A stretch of 64,000 bases of DNA from Paramacrobiotus metropolitanus (taxonomy: Eukaryota > Tardigrada > Eutardigrada > Parachela > Macrobiotidae): contig NW_026570228.1 of the NCBI RefSeq assembly GCF_019649055.1, forward strand, positions 682,001 through 746,000, written 5' to 3'. Positions 17,053 to 62,222 of this stretch are shown here, one piece after another (position 1 is the first letter of the stretch; each line of letters starts with the position of its first letter). A program made the translations under genes and the position numbers. Below the pieces are notes generated by a model. The model ran no database searches. It saw nothing but the letters and a program-made list of their open reading frames with translations, and was not told the origin of the DNA.

Positions 17053-17128
17053 GTTCTATAAATCTATAAGTATTTCTATGGCGGCCGGATATTTTCTTTA
17101 GATCATTACGGATTCGCCGTGGGGCTTG

Positions 17129-20100
17129 ATGCCGCGGTATCGACCAATGCTAGCAGATGCCAACCAGATGGGCTACCAGAACACGGTTGCGGTTCGGAAC
17201 GCTGACGACACGTGGTGGCTAGGATACATCCAGGACATCAACGGCGACGACGCCTTCGTTCACTTTGACTCCACAAAGGCCACACCGCGGTGGATCCACA
17301 TGGGAAGCGTGTGGCTGCTGCCGTTCTACTGGGAAAGTGGTGCATATTCAACAACCGAACTGCACGTGGCGCTGCGTGATGAAGTCGGCGGACCGTTTCG
17401 CTTTCGACCCGCCACATGGAACAATATCTCAAAAAGTTGTAAAGAATTCTGTGAAATATTCAATATCACACCACAGCTGGATGGTTGTCCCGGCGACGCC
17501 GACACTCCAATCTATTGTTTCGAAATGGTGGATAAAGGTCAAGTGGTTAAAGACTGGCCGCCCCCGGATCCGCCGTTGCTGGAGCGTCACAGCGGTCTGC
17601 TCTATACGAAACACTTTATTCCCTTGACCGGGACGCAGATGGTACTCAGCGACGCATCTGACAAATTCCGCATCATCAAGCATCTTCGCGACGCTTTCAA
17701 ATTACCATCCTCATCGGCATGGCCGCGCCCGCTTGATCGCTGTCGTTTTCACTTGCGCGTCCAGCGGGAAGGCTGCACGTTTATTGTCGTAAGTTTCGCT
17801 AGAGACGCGGAAACAACCCGAGCGACCGAGGCCACGTTGACGACAGTGCTGCAAAATCATATGGCTAGCCGGGATAGTCTGCCGCCCATCCGAAACCGTT
17901 TCGTCCTGCCACACGAAACCGGTTAGTAACGCGCAGTAAACTTTAAATATTATTTCTGGCTCCAGTAGATATTGCTTGCAGCGAACCGAGCGAAATAAGA
18001 GACAGTTGCAGCGTACATTATCACGGTTTGGTTCGACGAACGGTTGCGACATGTTGGATAGTACTGTACTTACACAAGTTTAAGGGCCACCAAAATGGCG
18101 GAAGCCGTAAACAATAGCGCGTGGCATTTTTGAAGTTAAAAAAAGCTGTCGGATTTTTTGCGCGCACTCGGACTTTTTTGTGGCTCTTAAACTTGTGTAA
18201 TTACAGTAACAGTGTGTTATATTGTATGATGGCGGACTTCAGATCCGAAAAAGATTTTATTCTGCTTGTGATACCTATTTAGCACATTAACGCTACTGTA
18301 CTTCTGCAAAACGACTACGGCCTCGTCCCGAATTCAAAGCGAATCTCGTTGCGTTACAGCAACTCCACCTCGCGAGGTGGCTTCGCGTACCGTATCTGTA
18401 GGCGTGGCCACTGCGTACAGCCACCTCGTGCGGTTGAACAACCGTACCATAGCGAGATTCGCTTCGAATTCGGGACAAGGCCTACCTGTACGCTTAGTTG
18501 TGTCGCCAGATTACTGTCAGACGAAAAGTCACTTCCACTCTGTCGATAATCGCGTCTGGATTTTTTCAAGCCACGACACTAATTTAAGTGCAGCACAGCC
18601 AGCCACCGAGGGAAGACAGTCTAGTGGCACGACACAAACTGCAGCCCTTCAGAGTCTTGGACAGTAAAAACTTGAAAATATATTTGATAAAGCAGTAAAA
18701 ACCCTACGGGTAGCGTAGGGTGTTTCTCCGATACATCATGTATCGGAGAAACACCCTACGTGCACGTTTTTGCCCAACTGCGCGCACCATCATAGAAGAG
18801 CTTAATAAACGTCAATGTACTTAGCAGCGCCGTTTGTTTGCTCATTTGGACAAAAGGCGTGAACAGCCATCAAAAAATACAATATTGAGAAAAATGCTTG
18901 CTTCAGACTTAAATTGTCAAATTGCTGCAGGTTTGGAAAGCGATGCATTGCTAACGAGTCTGTCAATCGCCCACCTAACGCCGTGGCTCATGGACTACAT
19001 CTTGATGCATCTTGATGTTCACTCCCAAATGAAGGCCCAGCGGTAACGTATATTGTATTTGCAACCTCAAGCGTGCTTATTGTCTGACGGCATCACCCCT
19101 TTTGCGACAGGGTGTGTGCCTTGTGGCAGTTGTTGCTGACCAGTGCCCGCGTGAAGGAGCACGTCAGCATCTCTTTTGAGAGTTGTTGGCAGCTGCAGTC
19201 AGACAGCGATAACTGCTTTAAAGCGGCCACTCTTCTGAGCCGATACATCACTCCAAACACCATCAGCGTGACCGTGCTGCGATTCCTCCCGCCAAACAAC
19301 GTAAACATCTTGTTCGACTGTCTTGGCCACATGCTGGACACCTACGAAAGCCCGCTGCCATTTCTCGTTTACAAGGACCACACTAGCCGCAAACCACAAC
19401 CGTCTACGCGGTACAACGATAAGCCTGTAAAACACCAGGCAGCGCTCGACGCCTTAATATTCAAAGACCTGATCGGAGACTCCATTGTGCTGCACAAGTG
19501 GACCGTAGGCGATTTGTTTGGCCCGACAGCATACCATGTATTCGAGGGTTTTCAGTATCCACCCGTCCATCTCCTGCGGATACAGGAGCAGGATCTAATC
19601 CTGCATCTTACACAGGAGTCACACGCCCTGGAAATGGATAAACTGCAAATTACCATCCCGCGGCTGCTGCTGCGCTGCAGCGAAGGCCGGACGCGCATGA
19701 GCGCTCGCTTCATGCACGCTCTCAACGACAACTTCCCGCCGATCACCACAGATATGCTAACAAAGGTCATGGCTGTGCATACGCGTTGGGTGCGCACTCT
19801 GGCTTATCCCGAGCACTGGGAGGCGATTCGAAATTACATTTCCGTGTACGTAGGAGGGTAAATTCTTCTAACGCTTCTTCCTCTCCCGGTGCCGTACAGA
19901 CAAAGTTCTCCGGCTTTCTGAACAATTGCTCACTCGTATACTATACACTTTGAACAAAGCTCAGCCACTTTATGCGAGGTTTGCGAGCTGCAGTTTCTCA
20001 TGTACGTTACCGAATCGGGCCGCCGGTTACAATGCGTTGTGCACATGCAGTACGCCAGTCATGTACTCGGTTATATGAGGAACTTTTGCTCTGTGCAGCC

Positions 20101-20626
20101 GCGTTATGTGGATGTGCGGCTGCTAATTGCTCAGCAAAGTCGGAAATAGTAAACTTCTGCTAGGAACGTGCATTTGCGACGTTTGTGTATGACACCTGAC
20201 ATGTTAATCCACGGAATTTGTACGGAAAAACCAGCACACTGGCAGTGTGTATGCTGCTTGTACAAAATTAATGGTGGTACACGACCCGTGTGATGGTTTT
20301 TCGTAAGCAAACTCTCGGGTCTAAGATGTGCGGTCCCAGCACTGCTGGGCATTAAAGTATCATGTGCGCGGCTGTGGGCGACCGGAGAGAAACAGACCTT
20401 CGTATATGTAAAATGCCCTTCTAGACTTCTAGTGGGAAGGGTACCCGCATTTGGTTAACACGTCTGAGGGCAAAATTGCATTAAATTTGGGATGCGTTGT
20501 AGGTTCAGCGGCTTCGACTCGGATGGGAATTTGCTCATGTGGGACACAGTGGATTTGCGTTTGCTGGATGTATCCACATTGAGCCGGTTGGCAATATACG
20601 GAATCGACCAACTCTTCCGTGTTTGA
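17129..20626 (+). CDS. Tudor-like / F-box protein, copy A (four exons, intact)
   Basis: Exons 17129-17921, 18931-19042, 19111-19845 and 20503-20626 join in phases 1, 2 and 2 and give about 587 residues ending in TGA. Exon 1 (residues 1-264) holds a Tudor/agenet-like segment near residues 12-60 (VAVRNADDTWWLGYIQDING, then FDS...WIHMGSVW), followed by an unrecognised region. Exons 2-3 encode an F-box around residues 277-310 (LTPWLMDYILMHLDVHSQMK, then RVCALW). The long C-terminal part (IPRLLLRC, MSARFMHALNDNFPP) is not a repeat I recognise. F-box proteins are substrate adaptors of SCF ubiquitin ligases, so a degradation role is inferred. The ATG is internal relative to copies B and C, whose upstream ATG is ACG here. 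TCTATAAAT lies about 70 bp upstream. Confidence 0.85.
18073..18197. mobile_element. 125-bp MITE in intron 1 of F-box copy A (TA target)
   Basis: The ends CACAAGTTTAAGGGCCAC and GTGGCTCTTAAACTTGTG are inverted copies differing at one base, flanked by TA on both sides (18071-18072 and 18198-18199). A TA duplication is usual for Tc1/mariner-type elements. No coding capacity. Confidence 0.75.
18316..18484. mobile_element. 169-bp inverted-repeat element in intron 1 of F-box copy A
   Basis: GGCCTCGTCCCGAATTCAAA at the left and the complement of the right end share about 33 bp (GTCCCGAATTC, AAGCGAATCTCG) with a few differences. The interior has further small palindromes (CCTCGCGAGG, GTGGC...GCCAC). 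It is not found in copies B or C, so it arrived after duplication. Confidence 0.72.
18714..18760. repeat. perfect 23-bp palindrome with a one-base loop
   Basis: CGTAGGGTGTTTCTCCGATA continues to an exact inverted copy around a single C. It lies in intron 1 of F-box copy A and has no counterpart in copies B or C. Confidence 0.92.
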
Positions 20627-21408
20627 GACGTTTTGCATCGTGTTTCCTACGCTTATAGGCGACTCCCTCTTTATTTTTATAAAATCATCCTGTTCGGTTG
20701 TTCTTTCCGTTCTCATTTTTGTCATCCATTTCATTAGTTTTTCTTAGCCAGTTTTCTTGTTTTAGGTTTGTCATGTCGAGGGTGTGTTTAGTGCACTACA
20801 AGGAATACGCTATTTTGTCCTGTCGTTCATAAAATTGTTCGCTTTTACGTTCATTCATCCTCAGTGTCACGATGGCCAACGACTCCACAGAAATCTAATT
20901 ATAACCTATAAGCAGCAAACGACGTCATACTTGTGAGAGTTGTTAAGTAGATAAAACGCTGCCGGTATTAACCGTAGTTGGCAAGAAAAAATTACAGTTA
21001 GAGATTAAAATGGTGGAAATTGAACCTACATACTTAAAAAAAAATTTGGCAGTAAGAAATTTACAAGTACTGTACGGTAGTTAATAAGACGACGCCTCGT
21101 ATATTGTTCCACGTATCATTCGGTTCATTCTATAATATAAGTTTTTGTTTTCTTCATCAAACTGCGTAACTTCTGCCGCATCGGTGCAATACTTTCGGTA
21201 AGTTCTGCAAAAACGGTAAAACGATAACGCTGTTTGGGAAATGTTTCTTATGTAATCTTTGCAGCACGTCGGGGAAGTGCCCGCAAAGCAGCACATGAAA
21301 CATTACTGCATAAAAATTACCTGTTCAGTCACTCCTGGCAGAGCGCGGTCGTGCACGAGCACCTTTGGCCTTATAGTCGCATCAGCACAGTTAGTAGTCA
21401 TGGCGTTC
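20627..21408. other. 3-prime flank of F-box copy A, no further gene seen
   Basis: The first 100 bases retain weak similarity to the 3-prime flanks of copies B and C (GTGTTTGAGACG, CATCGTGTTTCC). The rest shows no gene. Confidence 0.4.
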
Positions 21409-21691
21409 TCACGACGTCTTCTTCGCGTCCGATCACTACGTCTTCTTCGCGTCCGGCCGTTACATTTCGGCCGCAAAGGTTCATTTCGGCCAACGTTCAT
21501 TTCGGCCGTGTCTCACTTCGGCCAACACTCAATTCGGCCGACGCTCATTTCGTCAACTGGACGTTTCGGCCATCATAGGTTTCTTGGGCTGCCTACGTTT
21601 TATAGGTTTTCTTAGATTTTCTTATGTTTTCTTAGGTTTTTTCAGATATTTTATGGTTTCTTAATTTTTTTAGGTTTCTTGGCTTCCCTAG
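21409..21691 (+). mobile_element. foldback-like element B: one arm only
   Basis: After a 24-bp duplication (ACGTCTTCTTCGCGTCCG twice, 21413-21460) come six to seven units near GTTCATTTCGGCC, spaced about 16 bp (21460-21575). A T-rich tract with TTTTCTTAGGTTTT motifs follows to 21690. This is the arm-then-TTAGG order of element A. The expected inverted right arm is missing: at 21692 the sequence switches abruptly to a piece of the F-box gene. Confidence 0.7.
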
Positions 21692-21745
21692 GCAGGCGAC
21701 GGAGGCCACGTTGACGACAGCACTGCAAAAACATTTAACCAGCCG
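21692..21745 (+). pseudogene. captured fragment of the Tudor-like / F-box gene, end of exon 1
   Basis: About 52 bp (GCAGGCGACGGAGGCCACGT ... AAAACATTTAACCAG) are almost identical to 40798-40850 in copy B and close to copies A and C. It is bounded on the left by the T-rich tract of foldback-like element B. On the right it meets the CPEB-derived exon at 21743. Its terminal CCAG supplies the AG that would act as acceptor of that exon. Confidence 0.88.
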
Positions 21746-22912
21746 GGGATTATCACGGCGGAGAGACTTGGGCGGATCATGAACGCTTTATTCGGCGGCG
21801 TCATCGCCGCCACACTGGACACTGCCGCCACAACAAAGGCCAAGAATATTGTAAAAATGAAAACGAATCGTAGAAACTGAACGGAAAAAGATTACAAGTT
21901 TACTTTTTAAAGAATTATAAGCTCCGTCCTTTATTGCCTTTGAAGACGCAGTCAGATATATATATTATTAAAAATCATTCCGCGACGAACAGTTTCTTTG
22001 ATTCTATCTAATAATTATTAAAAATAAAATTCTGATAATTAGAAAAACCTGCAACGTATATTATCAGTCGATCAGAAACTGTCGGTTACTGCGCTGGCAG
22101 TTGGTGCTTATAAGCCGTTACTGGCATGCGATCGGCGCAATGGTATGTAAAAAAACTTAGAAAAGCGTTTCACTGACAAATATGACTAATTACTCGATCG
22201 GATCGGGCCGTGGCACCTTCAACAACCCGACCAGCCACCTGAAAGCCATCACCGCGGAGACGGTGGAGATCCGGACGGCCGAGTTCACCCTCCAGATCAA
22301 GATCAACCACTACCTCACGGAAGATATCTCCGGGCGTTACCGCGGCCACAGCGACGTCTACGTGGGCAGCCTGGGTGCCAACGGAGAAGCGTTAAGTTGT
22401 GCAGTACAGTGTCTTGTGGGGCCGGGCGGTGCCGGTGCCGGGCATGACGTAAGCGGCCGCGGAGGGCACGGTGAAGGTGGCGGATGTGGCGGACACGGTT
22501 CTAGCAGTGAGGAAGAAGCTGAGCCGCGACAGATCCGATTTCGTTTGGGTAAGAACCCTCCATTTTTCACATATCGCATAACTTCAGAATTATTTTAATT
22601 TAAAAATTAGAAAATCATCACATGGCAAGTGTTTATTTCATATTTCATTTATCGCCTAATTTTGCAGATCTAGATCCGAATGCGGCATACCACCAGGACC
22701 ACTTACCACTGGTTGGCAGTGGTTGCCAATATTGACTGGCAGTCCGAGCCGCGCCCCCAAGCTGATCTTGTTCTCGGACTGTTGAACGCTACCCGATTCC
22801 AGCCTTTTATCGATATGAACGCCGCGCCGGAGTTTACGGCTCGGCCTGGGGGGCACCACATTGTGTTCCGTGTGTTGCCAGGGCAAAGCAATCGCGCATC
22901 CCGGCGCATAGC
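21743..22912 (+). pseudogene. CPEB-derived gene, locus 1: RRM2, linker and C-terminal module, 5-prime truncated and frameshifted
   Basis: Exons 21743-21850, 22161-22548 and 22668-22912. The first two encode the second RRM of the CPEB family: ITAERLGRIMNALFGGV, then YSIGSGRGTFNN (the RNP1 region) and VEIRTAEFTLQIKINHYL. The usual ZZ zinc-binding cysteines do not follow. Instead there is a Gly/His-rich linker and EPRQIRFRL, as in locus 2. Exon 22668-22912 matches exon 4 of locus 2 (IDWQS, HHIVFRVLPG) but is 245 bp instead of 244. Entering it in the phase set by the preceding donor gives a TGA before the matching frame resumes, so a one-base frameshift is implied. The start of RRM2 and all of RRM1 are missing at the junction with the F-box fragment. 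It is probably a pseudogene, unless the indel is an assembly error. Confidence 0.78.
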
Positions 22913-22974
22913 GTAAGTGTAGCCTTTAGTTAGAATTATATATTATTACTGTACGTCATGCAAAAGTCCATACG

Positions 22975-23380
22975 TATTTCAGAGCGTCAAAACGTCAGAA
23001 ATTCAATACGTATGAACGTCAGAACGTAACACCGTCAGAACGTCACAAAGTAAAAACATCGGAACGTTAGAACGCCAGAACGTCTTAAAGTAAGAACATC
23101 AGAACGTTAGAACGTTAGAACGTCAGAACGTCATAAAATCAGAACGTTATAACGTTAGAACGTCAGAACGTTAGAACGCCAGAACGTTAGAACGTTAGAA
23201 CGCCAGAACGTCATAACGTCAGCACGTCAGAACGCAGAACGTCATAACGTCAGAAGGGCAAAACGTCATAAAGTAAGAACGTTAGAACGTAAGACCGTCA
23301 AAACGTTAGAACGTCAGAACATCAGAACTTCAGTACGTCAAAAATTAAAATTGTCAGAACGTCAGAAATTCCGAACGTCA
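22975..23380 (+). repeat. 8-bp satellite AGAACGTY
   Basis: AGAACGTC and AGAACGTT units repeat about 45-50 times with scattered single-base changes. The array lies inside the long last intron of CPEB-derived locus 1. It includes many AACGTT palindromes and no open frame. Confidence 0.88.
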
Positions 23381-26300
23381 GCCTTTATATATTCATAATG
23401 ACCTTTCCAAAACAATGCCAATACTACCCAATACTTAAGTGCCGAGCGCGGATGCGCGAGGCTACCTTGTAAAAATAAAGCCTACCAAGGCACTTTTCAT
23501 CCTCCAGTTCAGACAAGTTTCATTTATTTCAAAATTGATAGCTTACTGCCGTGATATGCTTTATATTTCATCTGCAAAGGTCGAAATGGCGTGCCCAGTG
23601 CCCAAACCAAAACGAATGCAGCCAAATTTTGGACACAAATGAGTACTATACCGTATACAGCGTTAACGCGTTTAGCTGCGCACAAAATCGCCGCTTGTTT
23701 TTATGGTTTGTTTCTCGTGCAACACTTATCGCACTGTAAACTATTTAGCCTTCGCTAGACAGATTTACTACTAAAAAAATGGGCCGTGATTGTTAACTGT
23801 GGTGTCAAATGAAATTATGCAAAAAATTATTGAAACGGCAATTAGGTACACAAAAACCTGTTCAGGAAGGAAAGCAATTTTCAGTTGAGAAAATATGGGA
23901 AAATTCGAATCTAGGTTTCTGGGGAATTCTCAACTTCTCCAATTTATCAAAACAGTTTACAAAAAAACTTAATAAAGCAAGACAGCCATTATGTTCAGGC
24001 AGCTCAGCCAACAAGTACAATGTACAAGCATTCGTAAATACAGCAAAGATTAGAAATGTACGGGTAATGCTTAAATCCCTACTACGACGCGCGCCACACT
24101 GTTTTTTTACACGCAACATGCATTTGGCTTGCTGGTGGCTTGGTGTCCGCCAGGTATTTGAATGAGAATATTGTACGTAATTGCCTGGCGTAATGTGGGT
24201 AGAAACGGTCGGTGCAGTAAGAGACAATCCATAATTGCAAGGCACAATTACGCAATGCGATGAAAGTAGTGGCGATCATGCAAGCGCCAACTTAGCGCTA
24301 ATATCGCTACCATTACATGCTCAATTGACAATTTGCCGACAGGCTTGTACAATATATTTACGTGTTACCACAATGCAGTTACCGGGTGGCTGAACAAAGT
24401 AGCCATCTGTCTTACTGAGGTGCCATGGGTCAGTGCTTTTCTTCATTGAAAGAATCTTAGTTTTATTTGAAAGAGCCATGTCCAAAGTGTATAAGAGATA
24501 TGCCAAAGTGACAGTCAAACCATTAGTTCAAGAAGATTCCGTTTTTTTAATCCTTTTTATAAAAAGGGGTAAAGTTGAATGATGTCCTGGAAACAAAACT
24601 TCAAATTTTCCTGTTTAAATACCGGAATTTCAGGTACTCAACTAAATACGTTAAAGTTTACCACGTTACCGTTTCGGAAAGAAGGATTGTTTCTGGTTTT
24701 TCACTGTAAAAAACAGCGACATTCATGTGACCCTGTCTGACCAGGGAGCAAATGGTTTGAGACTCCCCACATTTGATCCTCATGAAACGCGGTAGCAGGT
24801 TTTTCGAAAAATATTTTCAATTTTCAAATTATCATAATTTATTTTCAATTTTCAAAGTTTCAGTTTTCAAATCATCGCTTCGAAATCAGTCCTGGTTTAA
24901 ACCTGTGTTTGAAAGGGTAACTACGCACTTACAACTGCCAGTTGAACGGGATTTTTTGTTGCACCCTGTCATGGATGTACAAAAAACTGTAACTAAAATA
25001 CTCAAATACTCAAAACTAAAATACTCAAAACAACAAAGTAAAAAACGTGCAGTTTTGTCGAAAAGTCAGAAAGGTTGTTTAGTGCATAGTTTATCCAGGG
25101 CATGCACCATGTCAACAATATTTTGAAGTCCTTCACTAGATAGAACAATTAAAAATTATAGATCTACCGACGAAAACAAACTGAGACACAATTTTAACTT
25201 TATGAGCTGGGACACTAAAAATTTCGATACGATATTACTTGGCACCATTGTTAACGTGGAACTCTTGATTTTTCGAAAAACATTTTATTGGTTTTTGTAG
25301 CTGATAAAATTGTCTATCGAACAAGCCTAAGTAATTTGCAGTGCATCAATTAGTTTGCGAGGGTCAAGCAAAAAGCGGACAGAGCCATTTTGTTCGGCCA
25401 CCCGGTATTATTGCATTATATGCCATAACAATATGTGTGCGGGCACGGGCACTGCAGGTTCCGCGCCCCTTCTCCGATGTTGAGCCCGAATCGAGTAACT
25501 TACAATGGCAGCACAGCCGAAAAATGATGATTTCATTATAAAACTTGCTAATTTATAACCTGCGTGTACTTTTTGCTAGGAGTAACTTAGGATGTTTATG
25601 CAAATCCTGCACCCAATTTTTGAATAAATTACGTGCATCTCAAGGGGTGTGTATTATATTATTCGTACAAATTAAAATTCGCTCTGTATTAAACTGCGTT
25701 AATATAGACCGTGAAACGTGAACGTGAAACACCTGCGCATAGATGAATGCGCATCATTATTATTTTAGAATAAGTAACTGTAATAATTCCAGTTGAAATA
25801 CTGTTTTTTAATTAATTAATTTTTGAAAATTTAGAAAATAAAGAAAGTTTGTTTCGAAGAAACCCCCGGCCCCCAAGGGGCCATTCACATTCCAGGAAAG
25901 GTAAAAAAAAACATTTTATACAATAAATTACTTAACTAGGATTTTCACAATGTTTCATATTACTGTTGAAATTCCATTTCCAAGCAACAATACCAATTTA
26001 AAGTATTGCAATTCCAGTGAAAACCGTTGCCCCGAGACACTTCGATAATTCTACCTAAAGAGCAAGTATTTATGCATCCGCTATATTCTCCGTGGTTACA
26101 GTCATTATGTTTTAAAGCATTTTATTGCTGTGCAGTGAATACTTTTTCGAGTGCTCTTTACGTTTTCTATACTTAAGACCTGGTGAAACCATCTTTTGAC
26201 CACTGGTTATTAAAAACAAACAAAAATCTATTGGCACACCTATGGAAAATATTGAATTTTTTAAGACCAAGCTGGACTTGAACTGACCACGAGTTATCGA

Positions 26301-34369: not shown

Positions 34370-34449
34370 TTAATCGCTACGAGCCCAACTAGCACTGTGA
34401 TACAGTACAGCATTACGATCGCTGATTAGTGTTGGGCCGGCCCGGCCCG

Positions 34450-35406
34450 TTCTCTGTTACTAACATCGCCGTTGCTGAGGAACAAAGGTCACGCTGTCAC
34501 ACAGGAGAAGATGTCGTTGGCGCGTTTGACACATTCCTGTCCGAATTTGACATTGGCAACAAATTATTGGGATTAACAATTGATAACGGATCAAATCTAA
34601 TATCAGCGGTCAACTTATTAAAAATCAAGTATCCCGACATTGTGCACGTCCACTGCGCCGCTCACGTTATCAATTTAATTTGCCAAGCCGGTCTCAAACA
34701 TATTTCTGACCAACTGCGCAAACTGCGCGGAATCGCCGGAAGGTCACGCATGCCGAAAGCATTCCAAGCTTTGACCCGTATACAATCCGGCATCAACCCG
34801 GACCAACCGGCACGGAGATTCCCCATAGACGTGGTCGTGCGCTGGAATTCGACTTACAAAATGTGCGATGTCATGCGCGACTTTCGGGCTGCTATTGACT
34901 TACTGTGCAACGACCGCACAGGAGAAGACAGCTGCAAGAGATTCAAGTTGACAAACGAAGACTGGATTTTAGTGGACGAAATCACAGAGTTACTGGAACC
35001 CTTTTACAGTGCTACTAATGCTGTTTTTTCTAAAGGATATCCCACGTTGTCAATGGTGGTTCCGGTAATGGCCGTGCTGGACAGCCATCTAAAAGACTAT
35101 GCCAATGAACACCATTCCTGGGCGGAACAAAAATGGAAAAAGGACATGCTCGGAGACATGCAGAAAAAGATGGATAACTACTGGGACAAGATGACTCACT
35201 CCGACGTTCAGATTGCCACTGCTCTTGATCCCAGAATAAAGAAAGAGCTTACTGTGGACCGGCTTGATTTATCTACTGTCGAGACGGCAATTCAAAACAA
35301 AGTTGGGACAGTGGAGCCATTGCCGGAGACCTCTACAACTCCTGCGGCTATAGTTACCAAAACTTCGGCGAACGATTTTCTGGCTAAGGCACTGAAAAAA
35401 ACATAA
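34450..35406 (+). pseudogene. hAT transposase, N-terminally deleted
   Basis: About 320 residues of the hAT catalytic region: LGLTIDNGSNLISAV (catalytic Asp region), HVHCAAHVINLICQAGL (the conserved CAAH helix), RWNSTYKM (the RW motif) and LLEPFYSATNAVF. The open frame runs back into the left inverted repeat with no ATG, so the BED zinc finger and the first catalytic segment have been deleted. A TAA ends it at 35404-35406. The C-terminal dimerisation part continues in another frame at 35531-35737. Confidence 0.9.
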
Positions 35407-40059: not shown

Positions 40060-42360
40060 ATGATTATGGATTCGCCATGGGGCACGATGCCGCGGTATCG
40101 GCCGCTGCTAGCAGATGGCAACCAGATGGGCTACCAGAACACGGTTGCTGTTCGCAACGCTGATGACACGTGGTGGCTGGGATACATCCAAGACATCAAC
40201 GGCGACGAGGCCCTCATTCACTTTGACTCCACAAAGGTTACGGCGAGATGGATCCACATGGGAAACGTCTGGCTGCTGCCGTTCTATTGGGAGAGTGGTA
40301 TACCTCCAATGGCTGTTGTCAACTATAAGGTCAGGGAACTTCAAGTGGCACTGCGAGATGAAGACGGCGGACCCTTTCGCTTTCGACCCGTCACAATGCT
40401 GTGTACCTCCAACGGCTGCAAAGACTCCTGCGAAATATTCAGTATCAGAACGCACATGGTTCATTCTCGCGGCAACGCCGGCGCTCCCACTTATTGTTCC
40501 GAAATGGTGGATAAAGGTCAAGTTGCCGGTTATTGGCCGCCACCGGATTCACCGTTATTGGAGAGACACAGCGGCCTGATCTACACAAAACACTTCATTC
40601 CCATTCCTGGGACACAGACGATTCTAGCCGACGCCTCCGACAAGTTCCGCATTATAAAGCATCTGCGCGACGCTTTCAGACCGCCACCCACATCCGTCTC
40701 GCCACGTCGGCCTGACCGCTGTCGTTTTCACTTACGCGTCGAGCGGGAAGGTTGTATGTTTGTTATCCTGAGTTTCGCAAGTGACGCGGAAACTGCGCAG
40801 GCGACGGAGGCCACGTTGACGACAGCACTGCAAAAACATTTAACCAGACGGAGCAGTCTACCTCCCATTCGAAATCGTTTCGTCCTCCCACAAGAAAGCG
40901 GTTAGTGACATGCCGCGCATAACCAGTAAATGTTACATCTTCCTACAGTATCTGTAGATACTGGTTAGTGGTTACAGCAAACTAGGCGAAATGGTAGACT
41001 GTAGCAGACAGTTGAACCATACAGCATCACGGCTCGGGGCAACGAACGGTTAAGGATTCCGCTAGTCTTAAAATTTGTACTCTATAATGTCTTCTACTTT
41101 TACTCCGATACCTTTCGCAAACTTCGATACCTATCGCAAACTTTGTACCCTACAGATTGCAGTGCGCACCAGTATCGAAGAGCTCAATGTGTCCATTTAT
41201 GTACTGTAGACGTTTGCGTGCGTAGTAAAGCAAGAAAGTTGTGAGAGCTATCGGAAAAATACAATACTAAAAAAGACTTCAGATTTAAATTGACGTCTTG
41301 CTGCAGGTTTGGAAAGCAATGCGTTGCGAACGTATGTGCACATCACCTATCTGACGCCGTGGCTCTTGAATGATATCTTGGCGCATCTGGATGTCCACTC
41401 CCAAATGAGGGCCCAACGGTAACACAATATTGTATTAGCAATCTCAAGGGTGCTCAAACTCTGACGGTCCTCTTTGCGACAGGGTATGCGCATTGTGGCA
41501 GCAGTTGCTGAGCAGCAACCGCATGACGGAGCACGTCAGCATTTCGTTTGGGAGTTGTTGGCAGCTGCAGTCCGACAGCGATAACTGCTTCAAAGCGGCC
41601 ACTCTCTTAAGCCGATACATCACTTCGAACACCATCAGTGTAACCGTGCTGCAATTCCTACCGCCCGGCGACAAGAGTATCTTGTTCGACTGGCTATGCC
41701 ACATGCGAGAGGACCACCGAACCCCACTGCCGTTTCTTGTTTACAAAGTCAACACTACCTGCAAACCGCAGCCGATTAAACGGTGGGACGATGAGCCCTT
41801 CAAACACGGGGCAGCGCATGATGCCTTGATATACAAAGACATTGTCGGCGTCGCCATTGTGCTGTACCACTGGACCGTGGGCGACCTGTTTGGCGCCACA
41901 GCATACCAGGTGTTTGAGTGGAATAACTCTCCGCCCACCATCCGCCTGCGTGAACGTGAGCAGGAATGAAGAAATCCTCACGTCTTAGAGCACAGAGTTT
42001 GTTTACGGAAAACCAGCACACGCGCCGCCCTTGTGACTGGTATCCGGTACACAATCTCTGTGGTCGAAGATGTGCTATCCACCACAACATTAGGGTTGCG
42101 GCCATGGCCGGGAGAAAAGAGGGCAAACCGGGCGGGATATTGGAAACCGTTACCGTATAGAATGTCGACTGAGATGGAAAGGGTTCCGGCAGCTGGTTGA
42201 CACGCAGATTTGCACTTATTATGCACACTGTTTTAGGTTTAGCGGCTTTAACTCGGATGGGTCACTGCGCGTTTGGGACGAGGTGGACTTGCGGCTGCTG
42301 GATGTATCTAAACTGAGCCGATTAGCAATATACGGCATCGACCAACTCTTCCGTGTTTGA
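40060..42360 (+). pseudogene. Tudor-like / F-box protein, copy B (internal deletion)
   Basis: Exon 1 (40060-40900) and exon 2 (41307-41418) are intact and start at ATG with MIMDSPWGTMPRYRPLLADG. Exon 3 begins at 41483 with the F-box continuation (VCALW) but reaches TGA at 41967-41969. Directly after the shared LREREQ region the sequence jumps to what is intron 3 in copy C (ATCCTCACGTCTTAGAGCAC matches near 53580). About 480 bp covering the last third of exon 3 and its donor are therefore missing. The last exon (42237-42360) survives and would otherwise be in frame. A truncated product of about 479 residues retaining the Tudor-like region and F-box could still be made. Confidence 0.82.
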
Positions 42361-45182: not shown

Positions 45183-48075
45183 TCATTCTCGCTCAGCTAA
45201 TTTGAAGGCAAAATACACATCTTCCCGCTCAACCATGTCGCTGAATGTACCGAGAACAGAAACTGCATTTCCTCGCTGAATCTCGATACCGATTTTCTGT
45301 CGCAAAAACTCCCCTGAGCGAGGGTTGCCTGTACAGTCGCTAATCTTTCTCGACAGATCTTTGAAGAATTTCTTTGTCAGTGGTCCGAATGTACCCGAGG
45401 TTTCAAACGCCAGCGGTTGAACGTTGTAACGGTCTGCCAGCCCGCTGTACTTTCCTAATTTCCGATTTTCACGAATTTCCGCTGCGCTTCCCGGCACCCT
45501 GGACGTCTGGGCGATGTATGTTAGGGCAAAGGTGTCAGCCACGGTTACATCCCCATACTAGCGGCTTGCCATTTTCCAAGGAATGCTGTGACTCCATCAG
45601 GTCGCTTTCCATCTCCTCTGTTTAAGCCTGCTGGCTCAAGTGACGATGGTACTCTTGCCGAGCACAATGCCCGCTTTGTAGCTTCGTTCAGGACGGCGTG
45701 GACTCGTGCCTTCCTTTCGCTAGCTTGCATACCAAGCCATGGTGTCCGAGACTGTCCACTGTGCTGCCGCACCGACAAACATGAGGCTGGCATACGGGAG
45801 CTCCCAACCGCCGGGCCACGGCAATCCGTAAGTGAGTGTCCTCCAGCAAATTTCCGAATATGGATACAGGCAAGGCAGATAACCAGGCGCGCGACTCCGG
45901 TGAGGATGCAGCCAACAGGCGAGCAGAGGTAAATACGTCGGCATTCTCCATCATGCGGGATACTGTCTGGGTATGCTGCAGAGCTGTCCAAACCGACTGG
46001 AAACATCGGCTTTCCGTGCGGGGAGGTTCCAAGGAAAAACGATCTGACCACGCTTCTGTGAGCCGATAACAGCGGTCCGCCGCTGCCGCGTCACCTGCTA
46101 TGCTGCCAACCATGCCGGCTGCTCCGTGTACCGAAGAGGCGTAGGCGGCTAGCGCGACATCGGCTGCGCTGATTAGTCCCAAGCCTCCAAATTTTGTAGG
46201 CAACGAGGCTTGCTCCCTTACCGGGCCGGACATTGTCACGTTCGTCAGTTGCTCTGCTTTAACTCGGATGACTTCATCAAATTTTTTCAGCTCATCCGGA
46301 AATTGCCAGCACGGTGATGTTCTAAGAAGATACAACAATTTCGGCAGCGACAAACAGTTCTTAAGCAAAAACAGCGCCTGATGTGAAGGCAATATACCGA
46401 GCTGGTCGGCAAGCACTTGTGCTTGACCGACCTTCCTCAACAACGCGCCCGAGACAGCTTCGTTCAACAGCGGTGAACCCAACAGCTCCAGTTCCTCCGG
46501 TTTTGACAGTCGGATATCTGGTGCTACGTTCAGGATGGACTGGATTACGTGCTGGCGTTCTTCGGGAGATCCGCCGTCTACGTACAGCTCACACTTTCCT
46601 GTGTTCAACTGTAAGCCCACCGTGGCGGCTGCTCCTTGAATGTTCACTAAGGTGTCTTTCACGGCTTCCGGATCGCCAGCAGACACACCGTCGTCTAAGT
46701 ACCAGAGATTAATTTCGGCTTCGCTCTATGAGGATATGTCCTGTGTCAGCAGGCCATAGTACATTGGAGCGCAAGGGTCGCCCTGCTGCACACCGCTGGC
46801 GGACGGAATGGTGACTCCACTACTGGGGGAGATGCAGAACAATGTTGTGGCTTCGCCGTAGGCAGAACGGACAAAATTGTAGTAAGCGGGAATTCGCTCG
46901 AAAACTTTTTCCAACAATTTATCTCGCCGGACTGTGTTAAATGCGTTGGCAAAGTCAAATTTCAGGAACGCTCGCGGCTTTGTAGACGACTGTTGCAAAA
47001 ATTCCCTGGCACTGTGCACTATTATTTCCGCTCCCTTCTTGGTGCCAAAACCAAACTGGATGGGGCGGAAAAAATTCCCCATTTCTTCCGTTAGCCGGAA
47101 ACAGACGATTTTTGCCACAAGGCGGCGTAATGTACATCCAGAGGCAATGGGGCGAATGCCACCGTTTGGCTTCACAAAAGGGAACAAATTGGCACCGAAA
47201 AATAATTCTCTTGCTTCCGCTGGGATTTCCCGATTCAAAACGTGGTCTGTAAACTTCACCAGGGCATCTAATAACTTCCTGCGGGTTTCTCCTTGGGTGA
47301 ACAGCAGGTCTTTCAGGTGATCCGCGCGTAGTCCGTCCGGGCCTGGGCAGGTACCTGAATCAAACGACTCTACAGCAGATATCAGTTCTCTGTGTGTTAC
47401 GTCAGCAGGGGCCACGTCAACGTTACGCACCGTAGCATCCAGGTCAACGGGTCGACCTGGATGTTTCTGTTTTAAAGTCGCGATAACTTCATCAGTTAAT
47501 GGGGCGATGGTTTCTTGGGAAACTAGGATGTTCATCGCTCGCCCTATCGATCCACTTTCCAGTTTGGCGTTCACTAATTTTGCCTTTGTTGCTGCTGCTG
47601 CTTTGGGTTTTTGCTGCCTTTTCTTCGAGGGAGGACCTGTGTCCGTTGATTTTCCTGCCAGGTTCCTTTTGACCGAAGTTGCTAGCGATGGGCCTCTACC
47701 AGATTTCGTAGGAGGGGCTGTCAGGATACTCGGTGCGAATAGAATCAGATCGCTCCACGCGCTGATAGCGTTTCTAGCGCAACATGCAAATAAAAGTTCC
47801 GCGAAGGCATCTGCACACGCATCCCTGGCACCAACTGGAACGTGCGGGAGAATGGGGTTAGTCCGCCTCAAACGAGAAAGTTTATCAACTAGCTTTTCAA
47901 CTTGGGGAACGACTTGGCTGGCTGCAGCGGGTATCACGGGTTCGCTGCGCAGGTTTCTGGCTTGGGCTTCCCTGCATTTTCCACTGTCACGATGCTTTCC
48001 GATCCCATGCGCAGTAGCACAAACTTTTCCGCATAGATGACAGATGAAATTATTACTATTACTCTGGGACGACAT
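45183..48075 (-). mobile_element. non-LTR retrotransposon with restriction-like endonuclease, decayed
   Basis: Reading on the minus strand: a C2HC zinc finger near the start (CHLCGKVC ... HRDSGKC); SGTCPGPDGLRADHL; reverse transcriptase motif A (FLKFDFANAFNTV); motif B (SGVQQGDPCAPM); motif C (YLDDG); a CCHC knuckle (CRCGS ... HHGLVC); and a PD-(D/E)XK-type nuclease (GDGKRPDG ... GDVTVAD). The order zinc finger, RT, CCHC, nuclease is that of early-branching non-LTR elements such as the R2/NeSL type; the exact clade is uncertain. One in-frame TAG lies at 46726-46728 between motifs B and C. Frameshifts fall at about 45700 (after the CCHC) and about 45550 (inside the nuclease). It cannot encode a full protein. 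Confidence 0.9.
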
Positions 48076-51000: not shown

Positions 51001-51193
51001 TTTTCGCCCTTTGGTGGCAAATCTACAGGCTCAGCAATAATGCATGATTACCTCGAATCTTGATATGACATTTTGAATTTGGGTTCATTTGCAGCGTCTT
51101 GCCGGTCTCGACACTCGACACTGATAGAATTTATCCAAGTGTTGTGAACGTTCTGTTGTAAACGTTCTGTTATGTACTTCCTATGATAAGCGG

Positions 51194-53999
51194 ATGATTC
51201 CTTCAGGTCAATATGACTCGCCCTGGGGCGTGATGCCGCGGTACCGACCGCTGCTAGCAGATGGCAACCAGATGGGCTACCAGAACACGGTTGCTGTTCG
51301 CAACGGTGACGACACGTGGTGGCTGGGATACATCCAAGACATCAAGGGCGACCAAGCACTCATTCACTTTGACTCTGCAAAGGTCACGGCGAAATGGATC
51401 CACATGGGAAGCGTCTGGCTGCTGCCGTTTTACTGGGAGACAGACATATATCGTTTCAGCTACAAGATCAGGGAATTACAACTACAACTACAAGTGGCAC
51501 TGCGTGATGAAGACGGCGGACCGTTTCGCTTTCGACCCGCCACAGTGCTGCATACATCCAAAAGCTGCAAAGACTCCTGTGAAATGTTTAGTATCACAAC
51601 GCAACTGTTTGATCCTCCCGGCAACGACACCATTGTCACCACATGGTCTGAAATGGTTCATAAAGGTCAAGTTGCCGCTTACTGGCCGCCATCGGATCCT
51701 TAGTTACTGGAGTGTCACACCGGTCGGCTTTACACCAAACACTTCATTCCTTTTCCCGGGGCGCAAACGATTCTCAGCGAAGCATCCGACAAATTCCGCA
51801 TAATAAAACATCTGCGCGATGCTTTCAGACCGCCACCCGCATCCGTCTGGCCGCGTCCGCCTGATCGCTGTCGTTTTCACTTACGCGTCGAGCGGGAAGG
51901 TTGTATGTTTGTTATCGTGAGTTTCGCAAGTGACGCCGAAACTGCCCAGGCGACGGAGGTCACGTTGACGAAAGCACTGCAGAATCATTTAGCCAGCCGG
52001 GCAAGTCTTCCGTCCATTCGAAATCGTTTTGTCCTCCTACAGGAAACCGGTTAGTAGCTTAGTACTGTATGACAGTTTATCGTAGTTCTTTGATTTAGTA
52101 GCGGACTTCGGGTGCGAAAGAAAATTCATCCCGCATTTGTGCTTCTGCTTGTACAGCATTAAGCATGCACATGTTGCTCCTGCTTAGTGATGCGTTAATT
52201 GCCACTTAACTCACTGTGAAACCACGATCTCACGTTTAGCGCCGGATTACCACCAAACATATGAAATTCACTTCCACTGTCAATAATCGTGCCTGGAATT
52301 TTTGAAGCAACAATAATAATTCAATTATAGCGTTAGAAACCGAAATTTAAAAATAATCTCGATGAAATAGTTGGAACTTTCAATGTAACTATCTAAGATT
52401 CAAACTGTCGTCTTGCTAAAGGGCTGGAAAGCAATGCATATCTAACGAGCGCGCCGTTTGCTCAGCTGACGCCTTGGCTCTTGAGCGACATCTTAGCCCA
52501 TCTGGATGTACACTCCCAAATGAGGGCCCAACGGTAACAGATATAATTGCAATCTCTAGCGTACGCAATGCTTGATCATCTATGTATCTACTGATTCCTT
52601 TTGCGACAGGGTGTGCGCATTGTGGCAGCTGCTGCTGAACAGTGCCCGCATGGTGGAGCACGTCAGCATCTCTTTTGAGAGTTGTTGGCAGCTGCAGTCC
52701 GACAGCGATAACTGCTTCAAAGCGGCCACTCTCTTGAGCCGATACATCACTCCAAACACCATCAGTGTGACCGTGCTGCGATTCCTCCCGCCTAGTGACG
52801 TGGGTATCTTGTTCAAATGGCTTGAACACATGCTAGACGTCCACCAAACCCCGCTACCGTTTCTCGTCTACAAGGACCACACTAGCCGCAGACCGGAACC
52901 GATTCCTCGGTACCATAATGCGCCCTTTAAACACCCGGCTGCGCTCGAGACCTTGGTATGCAAATACCTGGTCGACAACATTGTACTGTACAACTGGACC
53001 GTAGGCGACCTGTTCGGCCCCGCAGCGTTCCAAGTATTCGAGTGGGATCGCTCTCCGGCTGCCCGACCCCTGCGTGAACTCGAGCAGGGCCTGATGGTGC
53101 ATTTAACGCGGGAGTCGCACGAACTAGGCATGGACAAACTGCAGATCACCATCCCGCAGCTGCTCTTGCGCTGCAGCGAAGGCCGAACGCGCATGAGCGC
53201 GCGCTTCATGCACGCTCTCAACGACAACTTCCCGCCCTTCACTGAGCACATGCTGGCAAAGGTCAAGACTGTCCATAATCGCTGGGTGCGCACGCTGGTC
53301 TATCCAGAGGATTGGGAGTCCATTCGAAATTACCTTTTCCTGTGAGTATGAATAAGGATTTTACTCAAACAGCCGTTCTGTACCCTATTACTCTTCTCGA
53401 CTGCGGTACGATTACTCACATGACTCGAACACAACAAGGAGTGAGTGCCGGTGAGCGATATTAAATCCCGTCTCCCGGGCTCTCTCTTCATTCTCGGATT
53501 CAGTTGGCCACCTGGTTACAGCCGGCAGCCGCCACAAAACCGGTTTATGTTTACGTGGTACAATCGCATAATGTAGGAATCTCCACGTCTTAAAGCACAG
53601 AGTTTGTGTACGGAAAACCAGCAATGTACACTGCTTGTACAATGCATGGACATGCACGCGATGCCCTTGTGCTCGTTCCCGTACACAAACTATGTGGTCG
53701 GAGATGCGCTATCCTCTATAGCATCACGGGCGCGGCGGTAGCCAACCGGAAAGAAAACGAGTGCGAACCGGGCGGAAGAGTGTAAACCGTCATTTTGTAA
53801 AATGTCGAGTTAGACGGAAAGAGTTCACGCAGCTGGTTAACACGCAGATTCGCACTTATTATGCACGCGTTTTAGGTTGAGCGGCTTTACCTCAGACGGG
53901 TCACTGCGCGGGTGGGACGAGGTGGACTTGCGGCTGCTGGATGTATCTACATTGAGCCGATTGGCAATATACGGCATTGACCAACTCTTCCGTGTTTGA
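51194..53999 (+). pseudogene. Tudor-like / F-box protein, copy C (single in-frame TAG)
   Basis: Exons 51194-52049, 52422-52533, 52610-53341 and 53876-53999 have the same phases as copy A and would give about 607 residues. The N-terminus is MIPSGQYDSPWGVMPRYRPL. In exon 1 a TAG at 51701-51703 replaces the CCG found at that point in copies A and B; the reading frame on both sides stays open and similar to the paralogues. The exon 2 acceptor is CTAAAG rather than CTGCAG, a weaker site. The F-box (LTPWLLSDILAHLDVHSQMR, then RVCALW) and C-terminal region are intact. AATAAA lies at about 54294. It is a recent nonsense allele, a sequencing error or a readthrough codon; the first is most likely. Confidence 0.82.
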
Positions 54000-54968: not shown

Positions 54969-56157
54969 TTAATGGCGCGAACCAAATCTGCCGTGTTCGT
55001 CCAAATAATAATCATTACTGCTGGTGGAGGTGGTCTGCACCGGACAGGTGCTGATGGCCCACTTGGTCCACGTGCCGCTCTTGAAAGTCCACGCGTTGCA
55101 GCCGGCGGTGACGACGGTAGCGTATGTAGCATTGCGCACATCCAGCGCGATAGCGCTGAGAATCGGAATCCCGTCGAAGTTATTAGAAGCTCCGTTGTAG
55201 CGGAACACATTACCTTTGCGAGAGATGGTCCAAATCTCTCCGTCTTCCCCGATACTAACCCATTTGCTATACTGAAACACTCGCTGGTTGCTACCGGCCA
55301 CGAGGGTCCATGTAGGGATCAAGCCTGCTCCGTTGTATTTTCGGATATCTCCATCATTACTGTCCAGTGCAGACGGCCTCTGAATCTCCACAGCGGTGTT
55401 TTTGCTCATGGCGTTGACCTGCAAATGGTTTTATACATCCATTAAAACGCTACGCTTCTGCAACGATAGCGGCTAAAAAGAAAAATTTCCTTAATATTTG
55501 TGGTAGTTTTTCAGATCTCCGTTTACGTTATTTTTCTTGGGATATGCGGCGGTTTATGCCTCGAAAGCACAACGTACTACAAAATATTTTGGATGCTTTC
55601 TAAATAAGCAAGACTGACTAATACTGCATTTTGTTTGAACTCGACACGAACAAATATAAGTACAGCATAAGCCGGACTATCCGGGCTAAATCTTCATTAT
55701 TGTATCAGAAAGATACAGTATGTATTCGTCTCTAGTCAGTGTGCTTTTTGTGAGGGAATATAATACACAGTAATGGATCATTCCCGGACAGTAGCTTACT
55801 CTCACCTGCAGACAGCGACCACTATTGGAGAACTCCCAAGCATTGGTGGTTGGATTAAAGCGGTATGTTTGACCCGTCAGAGTGCACATGGTGATGCCAT
55901 CCATCCGGACTAGCGCCCACACTAACGGCTTTGGCAGATCCCACGTCCCCATCATTAACAAGCGGCGTGGGTTCGGGCAATGCAACCCAGGCCCCGTTGT
56001 CGAGACGGTTGACGATTCCGGATCGATCGATGGCCAGGAGGACGTTGCCTTTACCGGAAATGTAGGAAAAATTACTCAGCGGGGCACTCGGCGACGGGAT
56101 CTGGCCAAACACGCCGACCACACTGACGAAAAAAATCAGACCACTTTCCAGGATCAT
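54969..56157 (-). pseudogene. secreted tectonin-repeat protein, broken by a 4-bp duplication
   Basis: Two exons on the minus strand: 56157-55806 and 55418-54969, joined in phase 0 (GTGAG donor, TTTGCAG acceptor). The N-terminus MILESGLIFFVSVVGVFGQ is a signal peptide. Repeats of about 35-45 residues follow: AWVALPEPT; KAVSVGASPDG; TLTGQTYRFN; KWVSIGEDGEIWTISRKGNV; NAWTFKSGTWTKW. These are tectonin beta-propeller blades, a family of secreted lectin-like proteins. In exon 1 the tetranucleotide GATG (minus strand) is doubled at 55898-55905, shifting the frame mid-blade. Without the extra 4 bp exon 1 would be exactly 116 codons and the product about 265 residues. It is a polymorphic null, an assembly error or a young pseudogene. 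Confidence 0.8.
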
Positions 56158-59189: not shown

Positions 59190-59717
59190 GTACGTACTAA
59201 ACTACTGGTATAAAATTAATGGTATCGGCTGAACTCCGCATCTCTTCAGTGTGCTGCGCGTTGACCGCAGTTCAAAAAGTGTTCAAAGGTACGCAACGTA
59301 CGGTACATGGCACATGCTAATTTGAAAAGCAAATAGTGAACCGGTCAGTTAAACGCTTGTACGTACGGTTCCACGTTGTGCCTGACCACCGGTAGTACGT
59401 CTCAATTGGTTTTTATCCGCCCCAGTATCACGTGCGCAGGCGCTCGTTGATTTCGCGGAAAATCCGTTATCTCTGATGCAGATCGCCACCGTTCTCCATT
59501 CCGTCATAGCGTGATCTCACGATCAGTATCCATTTATTTTGGTTAACGACAAATTCCTGTTTGTCTAGTCGCTGACCTGAAAATTTTCTATTGTTTTGAA
59601 ATGTTGATACACAATCATCATAACGATTAGGTTTCCACTGAAACCAGTAAACGGTTTCAGTTTGTGATTTTTATTTTAATTCGTGTTTGAACGTCTTTGT
59701 CCAGCAGAGTATACATC

Positions 59718-62222
59718 ATGGCGCAGATGGCCAACTCCTTTTTCACTGGTCTGGATTCCATTCGGGATATGTCTTTCGACTCCCCTTCCTCCATCGCTTC
59801 CCGGTCCCTTCTGGTCAGTTCTCCGCCCCATCATTCTCGACTGGAATTCGGAACCTGGGCCAATCCGTCTCCTAGTCCGACGCTGGAACGTGGCGTGCCC
59901 GTGATGCTGCCTCCTCCGCTGACTCCGCTGGGGCGATTCAACCGTGGAATTCCCAGCAGCTCCCGTGCAGCTCGACTGGCCATCTTGCGGGATCCCGGGA
60001 ACAGTCATGTGGTCTGGAGCGTGGCGCAGCCACCGCGGAACTGTGGCACAAGCTCGCCGTTCTGCAAGGTAAAGATTGCTGATAAACTGTGCTGATATCT
60101 CAAAATCTCTGTAGTCTAATGCAGATCGGAGTAGCAGTAGTACGGTGACGTAACCAGCCGCGTGATATATTTTAGCGTTCGCTTTATACTTTCTGTCTTT
60201 CTCCTAATAAACTGTGCTCGAGCCGTATCAATTCTGTTCACCGTCATAGTTTTATTAGCGTCGTGTACGGAAATTTCTCTGCTTCAATTACAGTCTGTAC
60301 TTCAGATACCATTTCCTTTTGCTTTTGCTCGATTGCGATGAACTGATGTTTACGTTCTTGTGTAACACAGTGCACATTTGTTTCAGGTATTTTTGGGTGG
60401 TGTGCCGTGGGATATCACGGAAACGGACCTGCAGAAAACGTTCGGGGTTTTTGGCCCACTGCGCGTGGAATGGCCGGGTGTGCACGACCACTCTTCAACG
60501 CAGCGTCCAAAAGGTGAGAAAAAATCACAAATGTGCGGAGTAATATGAAAAGTTATTTATCAATCGTAGAGGAATGCATGGTTAATATTAATGTGTTCCG
60601 TTATTAAAATATAAAGCACATATTATTTTTAAAAATATTTTAAAACTGAATGAATTTGCGTAAAGCATGTAGTCGTACATGCATTCGGTTGTTTTGATTT
60701 TATACAGAAACGTTTAATAATTTTCTTCTTTATCGTAAACGTCCAACGCAATTAGAACAGCCGGTAGAAGGTTCGTTTCTGTTGCAGATAATTTAATAAT
60801 ATTTTCGGATTAAATCTGGCCCGCGATTCGGTCTTGATTGTATAATTTTACGAAACCGTTTGAATTATTTTTGAAAACTTCGCGTCGTCGCGACATGACA
60901 TTGTATTCCATCAGTTGCCGCAGTGAATTTAGCATTCTTTGATTTTTTTTAAAGGACACCTGTACCTGCTGTTTGAAGACGAGCGCTCGGTGATGAAGCT
61001 GTTGGCCCGGCGCTCCAACGACGGGCATCACAACCAGCATGGCAGTGGCCGAACCTGGAGCGGCGTCGCTGGAGGTAACGGCAATGCGGGATGCGGTGGT
61101 GGCGGCGCGGTACATGTCATAGCCGGACCGGGGCGTGGTGCGGGCAATATGTGGCACGGTCGCGGCGGTGGGAATGGAGAGAATCATTGCGGTGGAGGTG
61201 GCGGAGCCGGGCAGCCACAAGGGCGACGTGAGCTTCCGGAACCTCGTCAGATTAGATTTCAACTGGGTAAGCACATTCTCTACATGTCGTGCAACAACAA
61301 ATTCATTTTTAAATAAAAATTTTGTTTATGGGAAGTGAATACTTGCCAAAAATTTGCAATGTAATTATTAGAACTTCCAGTAATTTTATTGTTCCCGCAT
61401 TAAGCTTAAATTAAGCAAATTAATGAATTATACAGCCTTTCCCGACACAATCGAGAATGAAGGTGCCGATATGTGCAAGCAATCTAGCTAACCAACCAAA
61501 TATTCGCCAACCCTAGCTAACTGAGGCACTTCGCTCCTTAATCAGACATTCATAAATTAAAAGCAGCTGAACGGAAATTTTGAAATTTTTTAATCGTTAA
61601 TTTCAATGTTTTTTATTCGCTTTGCAGACCGCAGGGATGCATACCGAGAGCCGGGTCCCTTTCATGCCATTCGCGGCATCAACTGGCAGTCTGTTCCGCC
61701 ACCCGATGCGAATTCCGTGCTGACCCTCCTGCATGGACACGAATACTTCGGTGCCTTCATTAATTTCGCTGTTAACCCTCGGTTCTACCCTGGAGTGGGA
61801 GAACACGGACGGGATCACATTGTTTTCCGTTTGCTGCCCGGGACCAGTGTCCAAGCGGCTGCCCAGGAGCGGTAAGTGTGAATTGCGGTGTAAGATCGAT
61901 TATTTCTACCAGTCTACCTGGAAAACTGCGTAGACTGGTAATGTGTTTATCACAGTGTGGTGTATCATACGTTGACGCTTGAATCTCCTGTACTTACTGC
62001 CGTCAGCCGGCTGGAGTTTGATGTTGTGACTAAACATGGTGCTTACGTACCGCGCCAGATTGAGCTATATGAATAAGCGCACCTTGTACTTTAGTACCTG
62101 ATTACCCTGTTGGTAAATTGTCTGATTGCTTTTGCTTTTTCAGGGAATATTATCGGGTGTATCCCGTCACCACCTGGGGTGTCCGCGTGGGATGTGAGCA
62201 CGTCGGGACTGTGTTTTTGTAA
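59718..62222 (+). CDS. CPEB-derived RNA-binding protein, locus 2 (single RRM, new C-terminal module)
   Basis: Exons 59718-60068, 60387-60513, 60955-61266, 61628-61871 and 62144-62222 join in phases 0, 1, 1 and 2 to give about 370 residues. Residues 1-117 are Ser/Pro-rich ([18 protein letters not shown]), like CPEB N-termini. Exons 2-3 encode CPEB RRM1: [26 protein letters not shown], then [20 protein letters not shown] proteins bind uridine-rich 3-prime UTR elements and control poly(A) tails and translation. RRM2 and the ZZ zinc domain are absent. Instead a Gly/His-rich linker leads to [10 protein letters not shown] and an unrecognised module ([21 protein letters not shown]-like, [10 protein letters not shown]) of about 130 residues. 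RNA binding by a lone RRM1 would be altered, and the module is shared only with locus 1 here. Confidence 0.85.
61037..61240 (+). other. Gly/His-rich low-complexity linker in CPEB-derived locus 2
   Basis: GGC/GGT/GGA codons dominate ([26 protein letters not shown]). Locus 1 has a shorter counterpart (GGAGAGHDVSGRGGHGEGGG). Such segments are flexible and in CPEB relatives can drive assembly; that role is inferred. Confidence 0.7.
62007..62076 (+). other. possible alternative terminal exon of CPEB-derived locus 2
   Basis: After CCGTCAG an open frame in the correct phase 2 reads [20 protein letters not shown], then YE and TAA. A related block exists in the last intron of locus 1 (27212-27300). 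Use of this exon would swap the last 26 or so residues. Confidence 0.4.

Follow-up and report, generated by a model that had tools for sequence, protein, structure and literature searches.

The ancestral architecture of CPEB proteins is described as a tandem pair of RRMs, with a zinc finger following them (PMC10284499, as far as its accessible text goes), and the accessible part of a review states that RNA binding by CPEB1 depends on the two RRMs together with the zinc finger (PMC3736149). Lineage-specific multiplication of CPEB1 is on record for the ctenophore Mnemiopsis leidyi, for which six CPEB1 paralogs are listed (PMC10284499). The accessible main text of the Paramacrobiotus metropolitanus transcriptome paper contains the string 'cpeb' 0 times (PMC11191345), and our literature search found no paper on the gene analysed here.

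The window, meaning the whole 64,000-nucleotide stretch of DNA that was analysed, corresponds to C8:682001-746000 of a genome of 169.8 Mb in 533 contigs and has a GC content of 42.55%. Near its end lies the focal gene, whose five exons form a single open frame of 370 codons and a stop. The clean splicing claimed in the initial annotation was borne out: the exons (59718-60068, 60387-60513, 60955-61266, 61628-61871 and 62144-62222) are separated by introns that all run GT..AG, and the focal gene stands as a genuine reading frame. Its features are as follows, L018 being the intact CPEB1-like gene downstream and L016 another related copy.

59190..59717, + strand: 5' flank and presumed 5' UTR, common to L018 (92.1% identity over 59190-59499 and 95.9% over 59500-59717)
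59718..60068, + strand: exon 1 (117 codons), coding for the CPEB1/Orb-like N-terminal region; 91.3% identity with exon 1 of L018
60387..60513, + strand: exon 2, first half of RRM1 (RRM_7 match), 98.4% identical to L018
60955..61039, + strand: first part of exon 3 (exon 3a), the remaining RRM1 remnant, to profile position 72 of 94 (RRM_7 match)
61039..61040, + strand: join within exon 3 from CPEB RRM1 sequence to linker sequence, placed to within a few bases by the ends of blastn matches to three paralogs
61041..61244, + strand: Gly-rich linker, aa 189-256, with 27 Gly among 68 residues and 3 RGG/GRG
61245..61266, + strand: end of exon 3 and start of the module (RQIRFQL), 3 of 7 residues invariant in four aligned module copies
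61628..61871, + strand: exon 4, module core, 36-45% identical to C8:681.6k, 607.1k and 704.7k
62144..62222, + strand: exon 5, module end and stop; profile match 1.3e-6 (L016 partner exon 4.2e-6), both matches arising by construction because the two sequences are rows of the profile

A search for poly(A) signals gave matches little above chance.

The 5' half of the focal gene is that of a CPEB1/Orb-family member. Residues 1-116 form a CPEB1/Orb-like N-terminus, exons 1-3a together with introns 1 and 2 are 84-98% identical to L018, and on the evidence of this sequence the focal gene descends from a CPEB gene. The view that it keeps RRM1 held in part: RRM_7 matches at aa 116-182 with 71.8 bits, above the cut-off (E 4.8e-20), and the closest solved structure is CPEB1 (2mkk, E 4.1e-21). 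The motif is nevertheless cut, covering profile positions 2-72 of 94 as against 1-94 of 94 in L018, so that RRM1 is incomplete, with about its first three quarters kept. The missing end holds the last strand of the domain, and an RRM1 lacking that strand may not fold. The Pfam scan of the 370-residue protein found neither a second RRM nor CEBP_ZZ. On the contig, no RRM2 appeared among the matches listed between C8:704325 and 765129, where weak ones may escape, and the nearest ZZ above the cut-off is at C8:766120. Thus, the absence of RRM2 and ZZ from the focal gene agrees with the initial annotation, none appearing among the matches listed as far as L018, which lies about 20 kb further downstream.

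The 3' half consists of the linker and the module. The linker, annotated initially as Gly/His, proved to be Gly-rich (27 of 68 residues) with only 3 His, the preceding HHNQH belonging to the RRM1 side. What had been described as about 130 residues matching no family is a module of 114 residues (aa 257-370), for which the second part of the description stood, since Pfam yields no match to it at E<=10. Among four module rows scanned against Pfam, one touches DUF1961 at E 0.25. The module of the focal gene shares 38-42% identity with the three other copies in the alignment and was found in its own genome only in the array on C8 described below, which supports the lineage-specific CPEB offshoot with an unrecognised module that was initially proposed.

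Searches of the genome with RRM_7, with the module and with the RRM2-ZZ part revealed an array that spans 160 kb of contig C8 and consists of six CPEB1-like loci, all in the same orientation.

C8:605-607 kb (L016): RRM2, linker and module
C8:623 and 647-649 kb (L032/L033, read as one split copy): module
C8:679-681 kb (L017): RRM2, linker and module
C8:704-705 kb, + strand, window 21746..22913: broken copy with RRM2 pieces, linker and module, matching L018, L016 and L017
C8:742-744 kb: focal gene, module and partial RRM1
C8:764-766 kb (L018): intact RRM1-RRM2-ZZ gene, ZZ at aa 302-361

The module occurs in five of these six loci and ZZ in L018. L016 and L017 carry RRM1, RRM2 and the linker, followed by the module at the position expected for ZZ. 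Their RRM2 is called from identity to L018, the two exon parts being 96 and 82% identical in L016 and 93 and 74% in L017; the L016 part that was scanned stayed below the Pfam cut-offs (RRM_7 24.2 and RRM_1 16.6 bits). As assembled, the focal gene is the only unbroken one among the five module copies: a gap of 2 nt interrupts exon 1 of L016 and one of 4 nt exon 3 of L017, the module exon of L033 is split by about 0.8 kb, and the 704-kb copy has a broken module exon frame and, within window 20000-24500, no match to exons 1-2. Some of the breaks in the sister copies could be sequencing errors. The existence of a conventional CPEB, which the initial annotation presupposed in speaking of a true CPEB, was confirmed by the genome search, both by L018 within the array and by a total of six loci above the ZZ cut-off, L018 (C8:766120) among them. 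The other five ZZ-bearing CPEB-like loci lie at C18:330-332 kb, C18:636-637 kb, C8:1737-1740 kb, C89:127-129 kb and C26:1295-1297 kb. Beyond the array, four loci (L019-L022) are CPEB1-like by eye, and L023 was taken as CPEB2-4-like.

Several other features lie in and around the array. A 315-base repeat, 88% identical between its copies at L032:2775-3064 and L033:2129-2442, flanks the roughly 23 kb between the two halves of the split copy, which suggests an insertion that split one array copy. Degenerate short repeats resembling AACGTCAG occupy window positions of about 22980-23400, directly after the broken module copy. Between the CPEB-like copies lie members of a repeated gene family, whose similarity was judged by eye, and the tandem unit may hold both a CPEB-like gene and a gene of this family; three members that were scanned had no Pfam match above the cut-off, the member beside L018 touching Agenet at E 0.041.

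Window 17102-17926, 19088-19861, 40060-40905, 41439-41969, 51128-51703 and 52560-53345, + strand: interleaved family members
L018:5480-6205 and L032:1142-2078: interleaved family members outside the window

The window also contains two adjoining ORFs at 45688-48075 (- strand), the first matching RVT_1 (E 3.7e-14) and the second without a Pfam match, which have the appearance of a retroelement; a fragment of a hAT-like transposase at 34426-35406 (+ strand, E 7.6e-10); and an ORF at 54969-55430 (- strand) whose weak match to Tectonin stays below the cut-off.

Comparison of the array copies points to two separate events rather than the single swap of RRM2 and ZZ for the module that was initially proposed. 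The DNA identity of L016 to L018 ends at L018:4162, by our reckoning near the first ZZ cysteines, and L017 retains the first ZZ residues (CSTWGVQPGQY compared with CSTCGLQPGPY) before its linker begins. Because the identity of both copies to L018 runs into the start of ZZ, we infer that linker and module took the ZZ position while RRM2 stayed. In the focal gene, linker sequence follows directly after 61039, inside RRM1, and the end of RRM1 and all of RRM2 are missing; blastn identity ends at 61039 against L018 and L017 and at 61037 against L016. The locus is best read as the product of a replacement of ZZ in an ancestor and a separate loss of RRM2 in the focal copy, so that the proposed swap applies to ZZ and not to RRM2, which the module follows in L016 and L017. 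Microhomology at the join relative to the L016 linker (13 of 21 bases) was not significant (p 0.07-0.11). In the history that we propose, the array would have arisen by duplication, and an ancestral copy would have exchanged ZZ for the linker and two module exons. Gene conversion or exchange would have kept the 5' halves of the copies alike, and the focal copy would have been produced by unequal exchange or by a deletion within the gene.

The two halves of the focal gene differ in divergence. Relative to L016, pS was 0.158 in the CPEB half (180 codons) and 0.776 in the module (75 codons); judged from such counts, the 5' half is young and the module old and constrained. Across five computed module pairs, pN was 0.34-0.45 compared with pS of 0.72-0.87, and for the three pairs that include the focal gene Fisher tests of constraint gave p values of 2e-5, 1e-8 and 2e-4. 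Identity to L018 varies from segment to segment (exon 1, 91.3%; intron 1, 94.2%; exon 2, 98.4%; intron 2, 84.1%; exon 3a, 92.9%), suggesting patchy gene conversion. Pairwise omega between the focal gene and L018 was 0.36 in exon 1 and 0.14 in exons 2-3a.

Changes specific to the focal copy gave a less uniform result. All four indels in exon 1 that set it apart from L018 and L016 are of 3 nt, compared with one of nine in the introns (hypergeometric 0.007). Its branch carries 11 changes over 136 synonymous sites and 16 over 407 replacement sites, a ratio of 0.49 with a one-sided p of 0.053, gaps having removed 7 of the 188 codons from the count. Exon 1 accounts for 10 synonymous and 13 replacement changes (Fisher p 0.081 on its own) and exons 2-3a for 1 and 3 (dN/dS 0.90, p 1.0), where the only three amino-acid changes cluster directly before the join. 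The triplet indels hint that the focal copy is still under selection, a question that the branch dN/dS (p 0.053) does not settle. Together, the indel and module data favour a maintained frame, without proving present function.

Several origins of the module were considered. That it is the CPEB RRM2 diverged in place was ruled out, since both coexist in L016 and L017 and neither profile comparison nor z-scores link them; more generally, sequence tests gave no link between the module and the RRMs or ZZ of its own genome. An origin from a neighbouring gene was rejected as well: when the module profile was compared with 2248 ORFs of 13 stretches, the best E values outside the module copies were 0.79 and then 1.2, and the first of these proved to be the focal gene's own exon 3. 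For viruses and prokaryotes, 17 and 23 pattern matches in their contigs failed tblastn and none was confirmed. Two structure models, both covering exon 4 alone without the parts in exons 3 and 5, had pLDDT 70.3 and pTM 0.63 (model 1) and pLDDT 72.8 and pTM 0.58 (model 2), and Foldseek returned no match at E<=0.001 among the matches listed. One of these two low-confidence models weakly resembles an RRM-like plait. This raises the possibility, which we consider unlikely if far from negligible, that the module represents an RRM-like domain (ferredoxin-like plait) that has diverged strongly, which would give the protein two RNA-binding-like folds again. Model 2 has the order strand-helix-strand-strand, its best VIA match is DND1 RRM2 (Z 4.6, rmsd 3.1, 69 aligned), and the chains ranked first by Foldseek are ribosomal (prob 0.82, E 0.29), presumably L23, a similar plait. 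However, a VIA Z below 8 may reflect a common arrangement, and model 1 reached at best Z 2.7 with MscS and 2.2 with DND1 RRM2. Mean sequence z was 0.45 between module and CPEB RRM2 and 0.92 between module and RRM1, compared with 3.39 between RRM1 and RRM2, and hhalign scores of the module to RRM1 and RRM2 fell below those of at least 8 of 30 shuffles, in a comparison whose RRM1-RRM2 control was itself weak. Still less probable, and in our judgement very unlikely, is descent of the module from the terminal part of a Polycomb RING finger (PCGF/BMI-1) whose zinc ligands were lost. BMI-1 matched the profile at E 0.058 among 177635 sequences, was placed by hmmsearch above 4000 shuffled sequences, and gave z of 2.6-5.9; none of 60 shuffles reached the hhalign score of 20.3 that the module obtained with the pair of BMI-1 and the genome's own PCGF. 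BMI-1 was, however, selected as the top match from a large search, so that its scores are biased upward, and the genome's own gene read as PCGF-like (L036, RAWUL below cut-off) gave z of only 0.5-3.1 (mean about 1.7; background 0.21, sd 1.05) and has introns at other positions than those of the module. The module lacks the RING cysteines, with no Cys or His among its invariant columns. A search of the genome with the BMI-1 stretch found no match and was insensitive, the PCGF-like gene being present. Identity of the module with RAWUL was rejected, as the BMI-1 match falls instead in the RING part.

For the gene as a whole, we lean towards a chimeric CPEB1/Orb-family gene born inside the tandem array and acting as a putative partner-binding modifier of CPEB-dependent mRNA control. 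Against this stand the branch dN/dS given above, an RRM1 that may not fold, the broken appearance of the other four module copies as assembled and the chance of an assembly error at the join. The main rival, to which we give real but clearly less weight, is a decaying duplicate, that is, an open but non-functional chimera that is intact because it is recent, in an array made up mostly of pseudogenes. The frame breaks, missing exons or insertion in the other four module copies speak for decay, as do the cut RRM1 remnant with its changed residues adjoining the join and a branch dN/dS of 0.49 with a p of only 0.053; the fact that all five exons are open and bounded by consensus splice sites, the triplet indels (4 of 4 in exons compared with 1 of 9 in introns) and the long-term constraint on the module speak against it. 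The initial annotation had proposed a competitor of true CPEB. Binding of U-rich CPEB targets through RRM1 would find support in the nearly unchanged RRM1 remnant (omega 0.14 to L018 in exons 2-3a), but RRM1 is truncated relative to L018 and RRM2 and ZZ were not found among the matches listed. Because the end of RRM1, RRM2 and ZZ are lost and RNA binding by CPEB1 is stated, in the accessible part of the review, to depend on all three domains (PMC3736149), competition for the CPE is argued against, and we rate such a competitor as improbable. We assign a similarly low likelihood to an assembly artefact, in which a tandem array was collapsed or misjoined. Tandem arrays are hard to assemble, and the probable source assembly, that of Paramacrobiotus sp. 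TYO, rests on Nanopore and Illumina reads according to the accessible text of its report (PMC8277472); yet the 5' side of the focal copy has substitutions and indels of its own and its module shares only 38-42% identity with the other three aligned, so that each half taken by itself is unique sequence.

If the focal gene is indeed a chimeric modifier, a partner-binding role is the more likely predicted function compared with competition for U-rich RNA. The gene might be expressed from the 5' region that it has in common with L018, and in the same cells, similar expression being expected because this region is 92-96% identical. Its product would have to be a stable protein, which might act through the N-terminal region and the module as a dominant-negative or scaffold-type modifier, possibly without binding the CPEB element itself. 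A broader proposal, which we offer as tentative and on balance doubtful, is that in a tardigrade lineage a domain absent from the family libraries searched replaced the ZZ of a CPEB1 gene, and that a recombined tandem copy with the CPEB N-terminus and a partial RRM1 serves as an RNA-binding-deficient regulator of germline CPEB complexes. Since the array combines an intact gene with copies in which ZZ is replaced and one that lacks RRM2, it shows how the CPEB domain order can be dismantled and makes it possible to test if selection can retain a CPEB fragment after its RNA-binding part is lost. If the module is functional, a new domain has become attached to germline translational control.

The array resembles the six CPEB1 paralogs of Mnemiopsis leidyi in being a lineage-specific multiplication of CPEB1; domain replacement is not mentioned in the accessible text describing those paralogs (PMC10284499), whereas the array has ZZ-replaced copies. 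Within the array, L016 and L017 share with the focal gene the linker type, the module and the exon order but differ in keeping RRM2 and the whole RRM1 stretch and in having one frameshift each as assembled. Relative to CPEB1/Orb itself, the focal gene has an N-terminal region and an RRM1 remnant close to those of the intact CPEB1-like L018 but, in place of the end of RRM1, RRM2 and ZZ, carries an orphan module at its C-terminal end.
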